From contig NZ_JACIFP010000001.1 in NCBI RefSeq assembly GCF_014197435.1, forward strand, positions 2,728,001 through 2,792,000: a DNA stretch of 64,000 nt, written 5' to 3'. A model generated the notes under the pieces. It saw nothing but the letters and a program-made list of their open reading frames with translations. It did not search any database and was not told where the DNA came from. Position 1 is the stretch's first letter; every line of letters begins with the position of its first letter. This DNA comes from Gordonia humi (lineage in GTDB: Bacteria > Actinomycetota > Actinomycetes > Mycobacteriales > Mycobacteriaceae). Shown here piece by piece: positions 46,219 to 58,200 of the stretch. A program made the translations under genes and the position numbers.

Positions 46219-46310
46219 TGCGCGTTCGACCCGTCGATCTCGCTGTGCGCGAGTACCGTTGCCGGTGACGCGCATCATCCCCACGAAGCCCTAGAAAGCA
46301 GGTGCGACCC

Positions 46311-47597
46311 ATGGCACGAATGGGAGACGGTGGCGACCTCCTGAAGTGCTCGTTCTGTGGAAAGAGCCAGAAGCAGGTCAAGAAGCTCATCGCCGGTCCG
46401 GGCGTGTACATCTGCGACGAGTGCATCGACCTGTGCAATGAGATCATCGAAGAGGAGCTCGCCGAGTCGAGCGGCGACGTGAAGCTCGACGAACTCCCCA
46501 AGCCCGCCGAGATCCGTGACTTCCTCGACAACTACGTCGTCGGACAGGACACGGCCAAGCGGACGCTCGCCGTGGCGGTCTACAACCATTACAAGCGGAT
46601 CCAGGCGGGCGAGCGCAAGACCGACAAGCGGACGACCGGTGAACCGGTCGAGCTGGCGAAGTCGAACATCCTGATGCTCGGCCCGACGGGCTGCGGTAAG
46701 ACCTACCTCGCGCAGACTCTCGCGAAGATGCTGAACGTTCCGTTCGCGATCGCCGATGCCACCGCCCTCACCGAGGCCGGATACGTCGGCGAGGACGTCG
46801 AGAACATCCTGTTGAAGCTGATCCAGGCCGCCGACTACGACGTCAAGCGTGCCGAGACCGGGATCATCTACATCGACGAGGTCGACAAGATCGCTCGCAA
46901 GAGTGAGAACCCGTCGATCACGCGCGACGTGTCCGGCGAGGGCGTCCAACAGGCTCTGTTGAAGATCCTGGAGGGCACTCAGGCGTCGGTGCCGCCGCAG
47001 GGTGGACGCAAACACCCGCATCAGGAGTTCATCCAGCTCGACACGACCAACGTCCTGTTCATCGTCGCCGGTGCGTTCGCCGGCCTCGACAAGGTGGTGG
47101 CCGACCGGATCGGCAAGCGCGGCATCGGTTTCGGCAACGACGTGCCGAGCAAGAACCAGGCGGACCTGAGCGACTACTTCGCCGAGGTGATGCCCGAGGA
47201 TCTGATCAAGTTCGGTCTGATCCCCGAGTTCATCGGCCGTCTGCCGATGGTGGCGTCGGTGCGCAACCTCGACAAGGAGGCGCTCGTCTCGATCCTCTCC
47301 GAGCCGAAGAACGCACTGGTGAAGCAGTACACCAAGCTGTTCGAGATGGACGACGTCGAGCTCGACTTCACCCAGGACGCGCTGGAGGCCATCGCCGATC
47401 AGGCCATCCACCGCGGCACCGGAGCTCGCGGCCTCCGCGCGATCATGGAAGAGGTCCTGCTCCCGGTGATGTACGACATCCCCAGCCGCGACGACGTCGC
47501 CAAGGTGGTCGTCACCGGCGAGACCGTCCGCGACAACGTCCTGCCCACCGTCGTGCCCCGCAAGGACGACGACGGTCCCGCGGAGAAGTCCGCGTAA
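46311..47597 (+). CDS. clpX: ATP-dependent Clp protease ATP-binding subunit ClpX
   Basis: This protein of about 428 residues has an N-terminal zinc-binding domain (C-x2-C in CSFCGK and CDECIDLC near 35), Walker A GPTGCGKT at 123-130, Walker [10 protein letters not shown] near 185, and the IGF-like loop KRGIGFGND that docks on ClpP. It unfolds tagged substrates and feeds them to ClpP1P2. ATG 46311 ([16 protein letters not shown]) has AAAGCAGG upstream; the frame is open nine bases earlier. A hairpin that also serves as repeat A ends the transcript. Confidence 0.97.
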
Positions 47598-47610: not shown

Positions 47611-47677
47611 GCTCACGCCCGAGGCGTCGGTTCCCGCTCCATCTCAGACAGAGAGCGGGAACCGACGCCTTCGGCGT
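47611..47677. repeat. Hairpin element A (left copy), also clpX terminator
   Basis: The core 47622-47639 AGGCGTCGGTTCCCGCTC pairs perfectly with 47653-47670 around a 13-nt loop. Short palindromes of the form ACGCC-N3-GGCGT adjoin both sides. It is the terminator of clpX, and it aligns without gaps to copy B (48661-48727) at 51 of 67 positions. It ends 2 bp before the stop of the AbiEi-like gene. Confidence 0.85.
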
Positions 47678-47679
47678 AT

Positions 47680-48666
47680 TCAAGTCTCGATACCGGCGCG
47701 ACACATCCGTCGCCGGAGCATCGGGATCATCGCGCCGCTGCGGAGGTCGTCGTAGATCCATCGGGCGACGTCGCCGACGTGATCGCGAAGGCGATCCTCA
47801 CGGATCTTCTCGGCGACGACGGCGTCCTCGACGTTCTGTCCTGGTTTGAGATCGCGCCAATATTTTCGTAACCCGTCGAACTCGGCGGCGAGCGAATCGC
47901 CCCAGCAATAGTCCGTGTACGCGATGGTTCCATCGACGAAGTCGAATCGGCGCTGGAGCACAGGGGACGGCAACTTGGCCTCGATCATCTGAGCGCGACT
48001 CCACGATTCGCCCGGATTCGCCGAGAGTGGATCGGCATGGCGCAGGGCGATGCGGACGACGGCGACTCCTGCGCGTCGTCGCTTGTCGATCTCGTTTTGG
48101 AGAGCTTCTCGCGACGCGCCCAGACGCAGTGCACTGTCGAGAGCGGCGAGAGCCTTCGGAAACGGTTTGCCCGCTGCGACGTCGACCGCGGTGCAGACGA
48201 GGTCGGATACGAGCACGCCGTCGACTTCAACGACACTGTCGTCGGGGAGGCCGGTGTGGATGTGCCGACTCGCCATCGTGCGTCCGCCGCTGCTCGTCGG
48301 CTTCGAGACGTGAACGACGGCATGATCGGGGAACAGCAATTCGAGACCGTGGACAGCCGCTGCCGAATCGTAGCTGAGTGGAAGACTCTGCGTGTCGGCG
48401 GCGGCGAGGGCTCGGAGTCGGTACTTCGCGTCCTGGACATCGTACTTCGGCAGCCGATCGCCCAGTACGTATGCTCCGGCCTCAATCTGTGCGAGGGTGC
48501 AGTCCCGCAGGCGGCGCTTGATCTCGGCGTCCGACATTCCCGTGTCGATCAGATCCGATCGGCGGATGACGCCGTGTCTTCCTTCAGGCCACATGCGAGC
48601 AGTGAACACCGGAACGTCAGATTTGTCTCTCCCGTTATCCACAGGCACGTTGCGATGAGTGTTCAC
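47680..48666 (-). CDS. AbiEi-like N-terminus with nuclease-fold (DUF559/Vsr-like) C-terminus
   Basis: This protein of up to 328 residues starts around MWPEGRHGVIRRSDLIDTG, which resembles the AbiEi antitoxin-type HTH domain (residues 25-80). The C-terminal part has ESWSRA, then FDFVDGTIAYTDYCW, AAEFDGLRKYW and EKIREDRLRDHVGDVARW, the Asp/Glu/Lys pattern of a Vsr/DUF559 restriction-nuclease fold. The GTG at 48666 lies inside repeat B; ATG 48594 is an equally good start. Genes of this kind are common in Mycobacteriales and of unknown role. Base composition is a little lower in GC than its neighbours. It has no partner toxin gene next to it. Confidence 0.75.
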   Translation of the reverse strand: MNTHRNVPVDNGRDKSDVPVFTARMWPEGRHGVIRRSDLIDTGMSDAEIKRRLRDCTLAQIEAGAYVLGDRLPKYDVQDAKYRLRALAAADTQSLPLSYDSAAAVHGLELLFPDHAVVHVSKPTSSGGRTMASRHIHTGLPDDSVVEVDGVLVSDLVCTAVDVAAGKPFPKALAALDSALRLGASREALQNEIDKRRRAGVAVVRIALRHADPLSANPGESWSRAQMIEAKLPSPVLQRRFDFVDGTIAYTDYCWGDSLAAEFDGLRKYWRDLKPGQNVEDAVVAEKIREDRLRDHVGDVARWIYDDLRSGAMIPMLRRRMCRAGIET

Positions 48667-48727
48667 GCCAGAGGCGTAGCTTCGCGCTCACTGTCGGACA
48701 AGGTGCGCGAACCGACGCCGCGGGCGT
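48661..48727. repeat. Hairpin element B (right copy)
   Basis: This 67-bp copy aligns with element A without gaps (8/10, 38/50 and 5/7 identities over consecutive blocks). Its stem GGCGTAGCTTCGCGC pairs imperfectly with GCGCGAACCGACGCC. At one stem position A has C-G and B has G-C, so pairing is kept. It overlaps the first codons of the AbiEi-like gene and lies 25 bp before mobA. Confidence 0.8.
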
Positions 48728-48751
48728 CCTTGCGCGGTTACGGTGGTCTCT

Positions 48752-49354
48752 ATGAGCTACGACACAGTCGCTGGAATCATTCTCGCGGGCGGGCGTTCGC
48801 GCCGCATGGGGCAGGACAAGGCAGGGCTCGAGTTCGAGGGGGTGACGATGCTGACGCGGGTCGCGGGCGTCGTCGAGCAGCGGTGTGCGCCGGTGCTCGT
48901 CGCCGCGCCGGAGACCTCTCAGGCGTACCGAGAGCTGTCGCGGGAGTCGGATCTGCGGTGGGTCACCGACGAGAAGCAGGGGAGCGGTCCGCTCGGCGGA
49001 CTCGCCGCGGCGCTCGCGGCCGCAGGTGCCGCCGGGGCCGACGTCGCGTTCGTGTGCGCCACCGACATGCCCCTCATCGGGACGGGTCTGATCGAGGAAC
49101 TGCTCGCCGGACTCACCGAGCAGGCCGACGCCGTGATCGCGCGCGACGCACAGCGGGACCACCCGATGGCCGGTGTGTACCGGACCCGGGTCGCCGAGAC
49201 TCTCCAGGCGTTGGTCGATGGCGGCGAACTCCGTATGACGGCGGCCGTCGAGGCGCTCGACACCCGACGCGTGAGCGTCACCGATGAGAACTGGCTCACC
49301 AACGTCGACGCGCCCGAGGACCTGCACCGACTGCGCGTCGGGAGCGTTTCCTAA
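48752..49354 (+). CDS. mobA: Molybdenum cofactor guanylyltransferase
   Basis: This protein of about 200 residues has the nucleotidyltransferase signature ILAGGRSRRMGQDKAGL near residue 11, and the acidic motif CATDMPLIG. It converts Mo-molybdopterin with GTP to the bis-MGD-type cofactor required by the nitrate reductase at 4339-8226. ATG 48752 (MSYDTVAG) is used; GTG 48743 is possible. It lies in the mycobacterial order after clpX, with the AbiEi-like gene inserted between. The gap to valS is 9 bp. Confidence 0.94.
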   Translation: MSYDTVAGIILAGGRSRRMGQDKAGLEFEGVTMLTRVAGVVEQRCAPVLVAAPETSQAYRELSRESDLRWVTDEKQGSGPLGGLAAALAAAGAAGADVAFVCATDMPLIGTGLIEELLAGLTEQADAVIARDAQRDHPMAGVYRTRVAETLQALVDGGELRMTAAVEALDTRRVSVTDENWLTNVDAPEDLHRLRVGSVS

Positions 49355-55232: not shown

Positions 55233-58200
55233 GTGACCGATAACGGGTCGCCGGTGAACGCCGATACGGCGCATCTCACGGCGGAAGACATTCCCCTCCG
55301 ACTCCGCGTGCACGCGCTCGCCCGCCTGGTGGGAACCACCAGCCGGGACGTGCTCGGGCACCTCGGAGAACTCGGAGTGACGGCGCGCACCGCGCAGTCG
55401 TCGATCTCGCGCGACGACGCCATGCTCGTCGCGCGACGCCTCGGTGTCGCCGCACCCGAGGACACCGCGCAGTCGGATGCGCCCGCCGCCGAGGAGTCGA
55501 CGCCGGGCGAATCGACGCCCGACTCCCGGGCCGCGGACGCGTCGACGGCGGACGTGCGGCCGACCGCCGAACCGAATCTGTTCTCGGCCGTCGAGGTCGT
55601 GGAGCCGACGGCGCCGCCCGCGGCGTCCGAGCCCGCGGTGCCGCTGTTCCTGGCGGCGGAGCCGGGGGAGAAGAAGGCCGACGCCAAGAAGTCCGATGCC
55701 AAGAAGGAGACGGCGAAGAAGAGCGACGGCAAGAAGTCGGACGCCAAGCGATCCGCCGACAAAGCCGCCGCCGAGCAGGCCGACGACGCGGCGCGGCAGG
55801 ACAAGAGCGCCGAGAACAAGAGTTCCGAGAACAAGGGCGCCGAGAACAAGAAGACCGACGACAAGAAGAGCGACGGCAAGAGATCTGACGGCAAGAAGTC
55901 GGACGCGAAGAAGTCCGACACCAAGAAATCGTCGAAGAAGGCCGACTCCAAGAAATCGTCGAAGAAGTCCGACGCCAAGGAACCGACGGTCGCGACCGAG
56001 GCCGACGGGGCGACCGAGACCGACGGGGCGACCGAGACCGACGGGGCGACCGAGGTCCGGGCGGACGGGCCCGCCGTCGAGACCACCGACGTCGTGCCGG
56101 CCGCCGAGAGCGAGACGGCCGCACCCGAGTCGGCGACCGCGGACGCCGACGCATCGCCCGCCGCGGACTCCGAGCAGACCGACGACCAGACGGACCAGTC
56201 CGACGACGGCGCGGGCGAATCGCGCTCTCGTCGCCGTCGCCGCGGCCGTCGCGGACGCGGACGCGGACGCGGCGACCAGCCGGAGGCCGGCGAGCAGGAC
56301 GACGCCGAGGCCGCCGAGTCGACGGACGGCCCGTCCGAGGACGGACGGTCCGCGGAGAGCACCGACACCGAGCAGCCGACCGACGACGACTCGACCGATG
56401 ATGATTCGGACGCCGACGACGCGTCCGACGATCAGGCGCCGAGCAGCAAGCGTCGCCGTCGCAGGCGTCGTCGCCGTGGCACCGGCGACTCCGACGACGC
56501 CGCGACCACCGACGATCCGCCGAACACCGTCGTGCACGAGCGCGAGCCGCGCACCAAGCGGGTCCGCGACGAGGTCCAGGGCATCTCCGGGTCGACGCGT
56601 CTGGAGGCCAAGCGTCAGCGTCGTCGTGACGGACGCGACGCCGGGCGTCGTCGTCCGCCGATCCTGACCGAATCGGAGTTCCTGGCCCGCCGGGAGTCCG
56701 TCGAGCGGGTGATGGTGGTCCGCGAGCGCTCTGCGAACGCCGCCGTCGCCTCGCACGAGTCGCACGCCGCGCCCACCGAGGACTACACGCAGGTGGCCGT
56801 CCTCGAAGACGGCGTCTTGGTGGAGCACTTCGTCACCACCGAGACCAGCCAGTCGATGGTCGGCAACATCTACCTCGGTCGTGTGCAGAACGTGCTGCCG
56901 GGCATGGAGGCCGCCTTCGTCGACATCGGTCGCGGACGCAACGGCGTCCTGTACGCGGGCGAGGTCAACTGGGAGGCCGCCGGACTCGACGGCCGCTCGC
57001 GCAAGATCGAACAGGCGCTCTCCCCGGGCGACTACGTCCTCGTCCAGGTCAGCAAGGACCCGGTGGGGCACAAGGGCGCGCGACTCACCACGCAGATCTC
57101 GCTGGCCGGCCGCTATCTCGTCTACGTGCCGGGCGGCTCGTCCACCGGGATCAGCCGAAAACTGCCCGACACCGAGCGCAAGCGGCTCAAGCAGATCCTG
57201 GCGAAGGTCGTTCCGTCCGAGGCCGGTGTCATCATCCGCACGGCGTCCGAGGGCGTCAGCGAGGACGAGCTGGCCGCCGACGTCGCGCGCCTCGAATCGC
57301 AGTGGAAGAGCATCGAGGCCTCGGCCGCCGAGCACCAGGAGAAGGCGTCGGGCAGCCCCCGAGCCCTCTACGAGGAGCCGGACCTGCTGGTCCGCGTGGT
57401 CCGGGACCTGTTCAACGAGGACTTCTCCAAGCTCGTCGTCGAAGGCGACAAGGCGTGGTCGCTGGTCTCCGGGTATGTCGGCGACGTGGCGCCGGACCTG
57501 TCCGAGCGCGTCGAGCGGTTCACCAAGGCGCATGCCGACTCGCCCGACTCGTTCGTGGTGCACCGGATCGACGAGCAACTCGCCAAAGCGCTCGATCGCA
57601 AGGTGTGGCTGCCCTCGGGCGGCACACTGATCATCGAGCACACCGAGGCGATGACGGTCGTCGACGTCAACACCGGCAAGTTCACCGGATCGGGCGGCAA
57701 TCTCGAGGAGACGGTCACCCGGAACAACCTGGAGGCGGCCGAGGAGATCGTTCGTCAGATGCGCCTGCGCGACATCGGCGGCATGATCATCGTCGACTTC
57801 ATCGACATGGTGCTCGAGAGCAACCGCGATCTGGTCCTGCGCCGTCTCACCGAGGCGCTCGCCCGCGACCGGACCCGCCACCAGGTGTCGGAGGTCACCT
57901 CGCTCGGACTGGTCCAGATGACGCGTAAGCGGCTCGGCACGGGTCTGCTGGAGGCGTTCTCCACGACCTGTACCGCGTGCGCCGGTCGAGGAGTCATCGT
58001 CCACGCGAACCCGGTCGAGGTGCGTCCCTCCGACGACGCCGGCCGCGGTGACGCGGGCGGCCGACGGTCGCGTCGGAAGAAGAGCGGCGGTCGCGGCGAC
58101 GGCGCGCCGTCGCCGACCGCCCCGGAACAGCCGAAGGCGCAACAGCACAAGCCCGCCGCCGAGCATCCGATGTTCAAGGCGATGGCCCACCACGACGAGG

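Follow-up and report, generated by a model that had tools for sequence, protein, structure and literature searches.

A nuclease-like gene between two matching palindromes: a proposed mobile cassette of Gordonia and other Actinomycetes

Introduction

Between clpX and a mobA-like gene of Gordonia humi lies a gene for an AbiEi-like protein, closely bracketed by two similar hairpin repeats. This locus raises the question whether gene and repeats belong together as one unit and, if so, what the protein has to do with its palindromes. The initial annotation of the 64,000-nucleotide stretch analyzed here (the window) saw in this layout a likeness to REP sequences with their RAYT transposases. We have followed the gene family and its flanking palindromes through Gordonia, the order and the class, and compared the resulting picture with known systems.

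Results

The two repeats flanking the gene, A and B, had been described as aligning without gaps at 51 of 67 positions. This count is confirmed, and the core of each repeat (Table 1) is 63 bp long within the earlier bounds of 47611-47677 and 48661-48727. Because both are palindromes, they match when one is inverted (81% over 63 nt) as well as directly (77% over 65 nt). The hairpins fold with energies of -50 (A) and -32 kcal/mol (B). All four ACGCC-N3-GGCGT palindromes of the window fall within A and B; the chance mean is 0.43 per window and four were reached by 1 of 100 shuffles. Covariation of the structure is present among aligned element copies and the compensatory change of a C-G to a G-C stem pair between A and B is real. 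Six copies were used: A and B, the two solitary ones of G. humi, and the 3' copies of G023 and G044; the G058 copy was excluded from the count as it aligned with an insertion. Stem cells pair in 87% of cases versus 34-45% with slid partners, and the covariation score was reached by 0 of 500 shuffles; both-sided changes occur in 8 of 30 stem pairs, a count that taken alone was reached by 62 of 500 shuffles. Palindrome A is located 17 bp past the clpX stop and is plausible as the clpX terminator. The description of the gene as flanked within a few bases holds on the side of A, but on the upstream side about 70 bp separate B from the probable start. An Rfam search of the window returned tRNAs only. 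Positions 55668-55961 of the window contain serial 15-bp repeats with many triplets resembling AAG codons, which probably encode a lysine-rich stretch.

Table 1. Features of the cassette and its flanks in the window.
Feature	Position	Strand	Basis or remark
clpX, flank	46302..47597	+	NCBIfam ClpX above cut-off
Palindrome A, cassette 3' end	47615..47677		Repeat comparison, folding, stem covariation, motif count
Gene for AbiEi-like HTH plus Vsr/PD-(D/E)XK-like protein, 304 aa	47680..48594	-	Open frame to 48666, 328 aa
TTATCCACA box (TGTGGATAA on the gene's strand)	48635..48643	-	Between palindrome B and start codon
Palindrome B, cassette 5' end	48665..48727		Repeat comparison, folding, stem covariation, motif count
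Whole proposed mobile unit, palindrome-gene-palindrome	47615..48727	-	Analogy with the unit ends of other cassettes and one-palindrome site L107
mobA-like gene, flank	48743..49354	+	Pfam MobA-like NTP transferase above cut-off; NCBIfam MobA models below theirs

Translation probably begins at the ATG at 48594 (residue 25 of the long frame), because record P0001 holds the 304-aa form and most relatives align from about there. PADLOC AbiEi models cover residues 28-195 of the long frame; with Pfam AbiEi_4 the window protein remains below the cut-off and 28 of 52 relatives match at E 0.01 or better. The AlphaFold model of the window protein (mean pLDDT 95.6) matches the AbiEi antitoxin 6y8q (E 1.8e-5, TM 0.28/0.41) and Rv2827c 1zel (E 3.6e-5), and its C-terminal part shows a weak match with the homing endonuclease I-Bth0305I (3r3p, E 0.077, target TM 0.63). 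Invariant in all 52 aligned sequences are E196, R200, Q214, D228, E238 and D240 as well as G241, K244, E262, R265, E266 and R278, which, going by known motifs, we take to be a putative PD-(D/E)XK/Vsr-type site. The protein is thus AbiEi-like, with a C-terminal Vsr/PD-(D/E)XK-like domain and a putative nuclease role. A sequence search of the PDB gave no significant match, and none of the transposase families in Pfam and NCBIfam was matched by the window protein. In the window, an AbiEii toxin gene is absent beside the gene, whose neighbors are clpX and the MobA-like gene. The names shown for family members are mostly 'hypothetical protein' or AbiEi-type antitoxin/regulator.

Upstream of the start codon lies a TGTGGA[CT]AA box, the single occurrence in the whole window, which we take to resemble a DnaA box. 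Among the 72 Gordonia loci described below it is found upstream in 21, mostly 49-50 bp ahead of the start codon, downstream in none and inside 700 bp in none. In many box-less loci of the genus (e.g. L056, L085, L102), inspection by eye reveals GGAACC ... CGTC[CT]AA immediately ahead of the ATG, a motif pair presumably resembling an ECF sigma promoter.

Matching palindromes beside other members of the gene family were the observation that the initial annotation proposed to look for, and they are found at 61 of 72 Gordonia loci and 24 of 25 distant ones. The pair score of these 61 Gordonia loci is at or above 17, the 99th percentile of 4951 control pairs formed across loci, from which 161 orthologous opposite-orientation pairs were left out; in 59 of the 72 loci it is at least 25. 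Of these 72 loci, 3 are those of the G. humi genome and 29 are search hits; the remaining 40 were selected by going down the ranking, with some ranks skipped and the choice made before the flanks were seen. A named set of 80 loci (3 unscoreable), which overlaps in genomes with the 72-locus set, gave pairs in 58 of 77 loci versus 1 of 311 control windows shifted by 1.2-1.7 kb at the same loci; orthologous loci within each set are not independent.

Family members are present in 58 of 59 Gordonia genomes, in at least 144 of 298 genomes of the order (E 1e-10 or better) and, for the class, in at least 216 of the 296 genomes sampled, spread over 98 of 114 genera. At the level of the order, the 99th percentile of 620 controls is 23.5, a score attained by 18 of 27 loci and, with Gordonia excluded, by 16 of 25. 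In the class-level set of distant actinobacteria, where one of 26 loci is cut by a contig end, all but one of the 25 scoreable loci carry a pair, versus 1 of 91 controls; the order and class sets have two loci in common (L139/L339 and L140/L352). These distant pairs are inverted in 20 of 24 cases, and two of the 24 (L358, L359) are short and weak. Tips of the form [TC]GA[TC]CA[CT]GT (e.g. TGATCACGTT) occur at both ends in 18 of the 26 distant loci, 1.20-1.34 kb apart, the motif being derived from the same 26 loci in which it was counted; no common tip was noticed in the Gordonia cassettes. The distant loci of genus g111 are assigned to Jiangella on the strength of a protein name, that of the protein identical to L344's. 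At locus L140/L352 (G215) the repeats on either side are composed of palindromic units in tandem and measure about 240-260 bp, longer than elsewhere.

The palindromes listed are mostly 50-113 bp long, one around the start and the other after the stop, and their sequence differs from site to site; nearly every site has its own type. The G. humi genome has three family members, each with its own palindrome pair. Besides the window locus these are L034 (63 bp at 79%) and L035 (C1:3316898-3317826; 80 bp inverted, 74% complementarity), whose gene is split over two frames and, given this two-frame reading, may be broken. The pair score remains below the threshold at 11 of 72 loci of the genus and 9 of 27 of the order. 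L259, L262, L268 and L092 have orthologous, apparently intact genes that lack a detectable palindrome pair; the flanks of L259 and L268 are near-identical along much of the locus. Relatives with the gene at this locus and no repeat B had been named beforehand as counter-evidence, and to some extent they exist: the clpX-region loci L038, L039 and L041 (G042, G044, G052) are without a detectable pair. A search of plasmids yielded 5 weak matches, and one of phages none.

The two ends of a cassette change in step with each other and with the protein. Palindrome similarity at orthologous sites tracks protein identity (rho 0.81, 63 pairs), as calculated for 57 of the 59 loci scoring at least 25, with repeats longer than 130 bp dropped. 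In 24 of the 29 pairs whose loci are orthologous on both sides, the two palindromes of one locus resemble each other more closely than they resemble their same-side counterparts in the other locus; where protein identity is below 80%, this holds for 20 of 20 pairs. At the clpX site, G. humi, G022 and G029 carry unrelated palindrome pairs at the same place. For 1533 pairs from different sites, palindrome similarity and protein identity correlate weakly overall (rho 0.05), but palindromes scoring at least 20 are found mainly between closer proteins (4 of 41 pairs at 60-70% identity, 0 of 863 below 45%).

Related cassettes occur in different surroundings. L061 and L088 (85% protein identity) share DNA similarity only in the cassette, save one 46-bp match. 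For L061/L088, L034/L069 and L034/L071 the similarity ends at most 5 bp from the palindromes at all four ends; of the ten different-site pairs, which were chosen by hand, these 3 stop within 5 bp, 4 stop up to 48 bp off and 3 more distant ones stop short. In a tree of 97 proteins the genes of the fad site are distributed over separate branches: six group together (support 100/99), L293 with L295 (100/99), L291 with L085 (100/94) and L297 with genes of another site (93/83), L085 lying about 15 kb from the fad gene of its own genome. The ndh-site L036 groups with the clpX-site L001 and L037 (100/98). The tree had also raised the suspicion that in G058 the clpX-site gene recently jumped to the ndh site; this is not supported, since G022 carries a cassette at each of the two.

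Among the 30 nearest genomes, the fad site is filled in 11, empty in 18 and ambiguous in 1 (L282). All filled sites have palindrome pairs, with 8 cassettes convergent and 3 in the opposite orientation. Of the 18 empty sites, L283 and L284 each retain a palindrome whose best match is the G008 cassette of this site, with scores of 27.5 and 26.0 versus shuffle maxima of 13.5 and 15.0. The solo palindromes at L280 and L281 are decayed and do not clearly exceed the shuffles (14.5 and 13.5 versus maxima of 14.0 and 13.5). At the clpX site, 8 of the 30 nearest genomes have the gene in the region (one 1.3 kb away), 7 are empty with mobA adjacent and 15 are ambiguous. An empty clpX-mobA site with one copy, for which the initial annotation proposed to look in relatives, was found at one of the 7 (L107, G058), whose palindrome best matches the cassette of the window (34.5; shuffle maximum 16.0), but not at the other six, which have unrelated hairpins or none alike. 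Empty sites often have unrelated long terminator hairpins and many are without a cassette-like palindrome.

Cassettes also differ between closely similar flanks. At the fad site of G034 and G025 the gene is 74% identical, while the flanks are mostly 89-99% identical upstream and 93-100% downstream, with a low-identity stretch of about 500 bp just upstream of the gene; for L257/L261 at the same site, low identity starts about 500 bp upstream of the gene, away from the palindrome. Among nine pairs chosen by hand for comparing gene with flanks, four fad-site pairs show a drop in identity (genes 73-83%, flanks mostly 89-100%); of five pairs at other sites, four are without a drop and one has a mild one (L055/L057).

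Three pairs are flipped: L391/L392 (flanks 90-92%, inverted interior 78%), L402/L401 (flanks 86-87%, interior 67%) and L293/L295 (flanks 92-94%, interior 72%, proteins 74%). Both orientations at one site between inverted repeats were thus seen, between species only. As the interiors are more diverged than the flanks, replacement by another cassette that entered reversed may explain them equally well; fast gene evolution might also do so, and the data do not separate the two. At the mshC site of Jiangella, the cassette is present in 7 of 12 genomes, 5 one way and 2 the other; a clean empty mshC site was sought among the five gene-less genomes, of which four hold another gene and the fifth (L400) differs. 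Likewise, no clean empty site was found for L088, whose cassette is part of a strain-specific region about 3.4 kb long. By eye, no target-site duplication was seen at the distant tips or in the ten different-site pairs, nor did any clean empty site turn up that derived from the same recent event, and no near-identical cassette copies were seen within one genome.

Solitary palindromes, for which the initial annotation proposed to search, exist in the G. humi genome, in G045 and in G004. The window type has two in G. humi, at C1:1675917 and C1:3854094 (E 6.6e-11 and 3.4e-8). Of the L034 and L035 types, for which 40 of 86 candidates were scored and the other copy of L035's pair was unlisted, L035 has at least 10 further matches at E 0.05 or better, nine of them palindromic and four of these nine at E 1.3e-6 or better, and L034 has none beyond its own pair among the candidates scored. 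As lower bounds, the dispersed copies beyond the cassettes of this genome are 2 of the window type, about 9 of the L035 type and 0 of the L034 type. The type with most solitary copies found in G. humi is that of L035, despite its two-frame gene. Within 1.5 kb of 12 solitary matches of this genome, no family remnant was found at E 1e-4. The L088 type has at least 4 solitary copies in G045 and at least 2 in G004.

Discussion

In this study, we propose as the probable explanation that the cassette is a small mobile unit, in which a nuclease gene lies between two long palindromes that serve as its ends and the protein cuts the palindrome. Movement of palindrome, gene and palindrome as a unit is well supported by genome comparison, which shows the unit at different sites, differing between near-identical flanks, flipped, and absent from a few sites that keep one palindrome. 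Cognate binding, cutting and the repair route we infer as follows. The protein would bind its own palindrome of about 60 bp via the AbiEi-like part, probably as a dimer across the two-fold axis, and the Vsr/PD-(D/E)XK-like domain would cut the bound palindrome. With a filled copy as template, repair of the cut would insert or replace the cassette in a homing-like manner, and repair between the two ends would delete the gene, leaving one palindrome, or flip it. Repeated repair of palindrome from palindrome would keep the copies alike while protein and palindrome change jointly, and solitary copies would be relics or non-autonomous copies. A dimer on a 60-bp palindrome is a reasonable assumption by analogy with I-Bth0305I, an EDxHD/Vsr-like homing endonuclease of which a review states that a target of nearly 60 bp is bound by a dimer (PMC3943268).

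Several observations argue against this explanation: target-site duplications, sought by eye, and near-identical copies were not seen, and further points are the sub-threshold loci including the well-kept L259, L262, L268 and L092, the many empty sites without a cassette-like palindrome, the start of low identity off the palindrome in L257/L261 and the weak nuclease match. The main rival holds that the cassette is passive: its ends would be long two-way terminators or REP-like repeats on which host homologous recombination flips, deletes and swaps the gene, merely accompanied by a protein whose job lies elsewhere. Such recombination could do all of it, since flips, one-palindrome sites and exchange are reachable by ordinary repeat recombination; moreover, long intergenic palindromes are common here and gene-less sites often carry unrelated terminator hairpins. 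We nevertheless consider this rival unlikely, because mutually matching palindromes are specific to the family by the shifted-window and class-level controls (1/311 and 1/91), palindrome and protein change jointly, the tip conserved over distant loci suggests recognition, and local recombination alone would not account for related cassettes in unrelated surroundings.

Less probable still is an orphan AbiEi-type regulator with the palindromes as operators, or a defense nuclease swapped between strains, the second palindrome being a terminator. The AbiEi models matching the N-terminal part and the fold shared with 6y8q speak for it, and defense genes turn over fast, like the fad-site gene; yet the AbiEii toxin gene is absent next to the window gene, and this explanation leaves the matching copy past the stop codon, the solitary copies and the gene-less one-palindrome sites unaccounted for. 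That two ordinary terminators look alike by chance is conceivable in a G+C-rich genome where terminator-like hairpins are common, but is contradicted by the cross-locus and shifted-window controls (61/72 versus 1% of 4951 cross-locus pairs, 58/77 versus 1/311, 24/25 versus 1/91) and deserves hardly any credence.

Taking the mobile-unit explanation to its full extent, the cassettes may form a new class of self-mobile elements across Actinomycetes, in which an AbiEi-like HTH fused to a Vsr-type nuclease cuts its own palindrome as a dimer and homes, replaces, flips and deletes its cassette, dragging the palindromes along with a joint change of specificity and seeding REP-like palindromes; to this complete version we give even chances. 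If true, many 'AbiEi family antitoxin' annotations refer to mobile-element nucleases and not to antitoxins, and the lifestyle of a gene with its palindromes has arisen at least twice with unrelated enzymes. It would also provide a natural series of enzymes and palindromes from which recognition can be read in sequence and which is open to testing.

Among known systems, AbiE type IV toxin-antitoxin systems (AbiEi 6y8q, Rv2827c 1zel) share the N-terminal fold and the AbiEi profiles with the cassette protein, but the cassette differs by its extra nuclease-like domain, the lack of a toxin gene beside it in the window and the palindromes at both ends. The homing endonuclease I-Bth0305I has the nearest, though weakly matching, solved C-terminal fold, and the cassette gene is replaced between near-identical flanks; the replacement at the fad site would fit homing and does not prove it. 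Unlike I-Bth0305I, the cassette has an AbiEi-like N-terminal part, lies between genes and not in an intron, and has palindromes as ends. Insertion sequences are similar in size (about 1.1-1.3 kb) and in carrying one gene, and their terminal inverted repeats have a counterpart in the distant loci with inverted ends and a common tip (20 of 24 pairs and 18 of 26 loci, respectively). The cassette differs from them in that no target duplication or near-identical copies were seen and no transposase family was matched.

The comparison with REP/RAYT systems drawn in the initial annotation stands for layout and behavior and fails for the protein, which is no RAYT relative. As far as the accessible parts of two reports on REPtrons go (PMC2817692, PMC3733652), both systems have one gene between two palindromes, co-evolution of gene and palindrome, and solitary copies elsewhere in the genome. 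The RAYT enzyme is an HUH tyrosine transposase, whereas the cassette protein combines an AbiEi-like HTH with a Vsr/PD-(D/E)XK-like domain. REPs are 20-40 bp long in these sources, shorter than the cassette palindromes, and 37-427 copies are given for Stenotrophomonas, compared to few known solitary copies here (0 to about 10, as lower bounds). In addition, the flips and the replacement between species set the cassettes apart. By eye, the GT(A/G)G head that REPs carry at one end was not seen; the window copies read ACGCC...GGCGT and the distant tips TGATCACGTT or alike. Because the defining enzyme is not found, the cassette is not a REPtron. CGTC-tagged REPs are likewise palindromic repeats, for which the authors found no dedicated transposase, and the accessible part of that report (PMC3733652) names no actinobacteria, Gordonia, Rhodococcus or mycobacteria; a link to the cassette is speculation. 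No description of the association between gene and palindrome was found in the open-access PMC literature. Compared with the element types considered here, the cassette has a known layout, but an enzyme that is that of none of them, and in this sense it would be new in kind.
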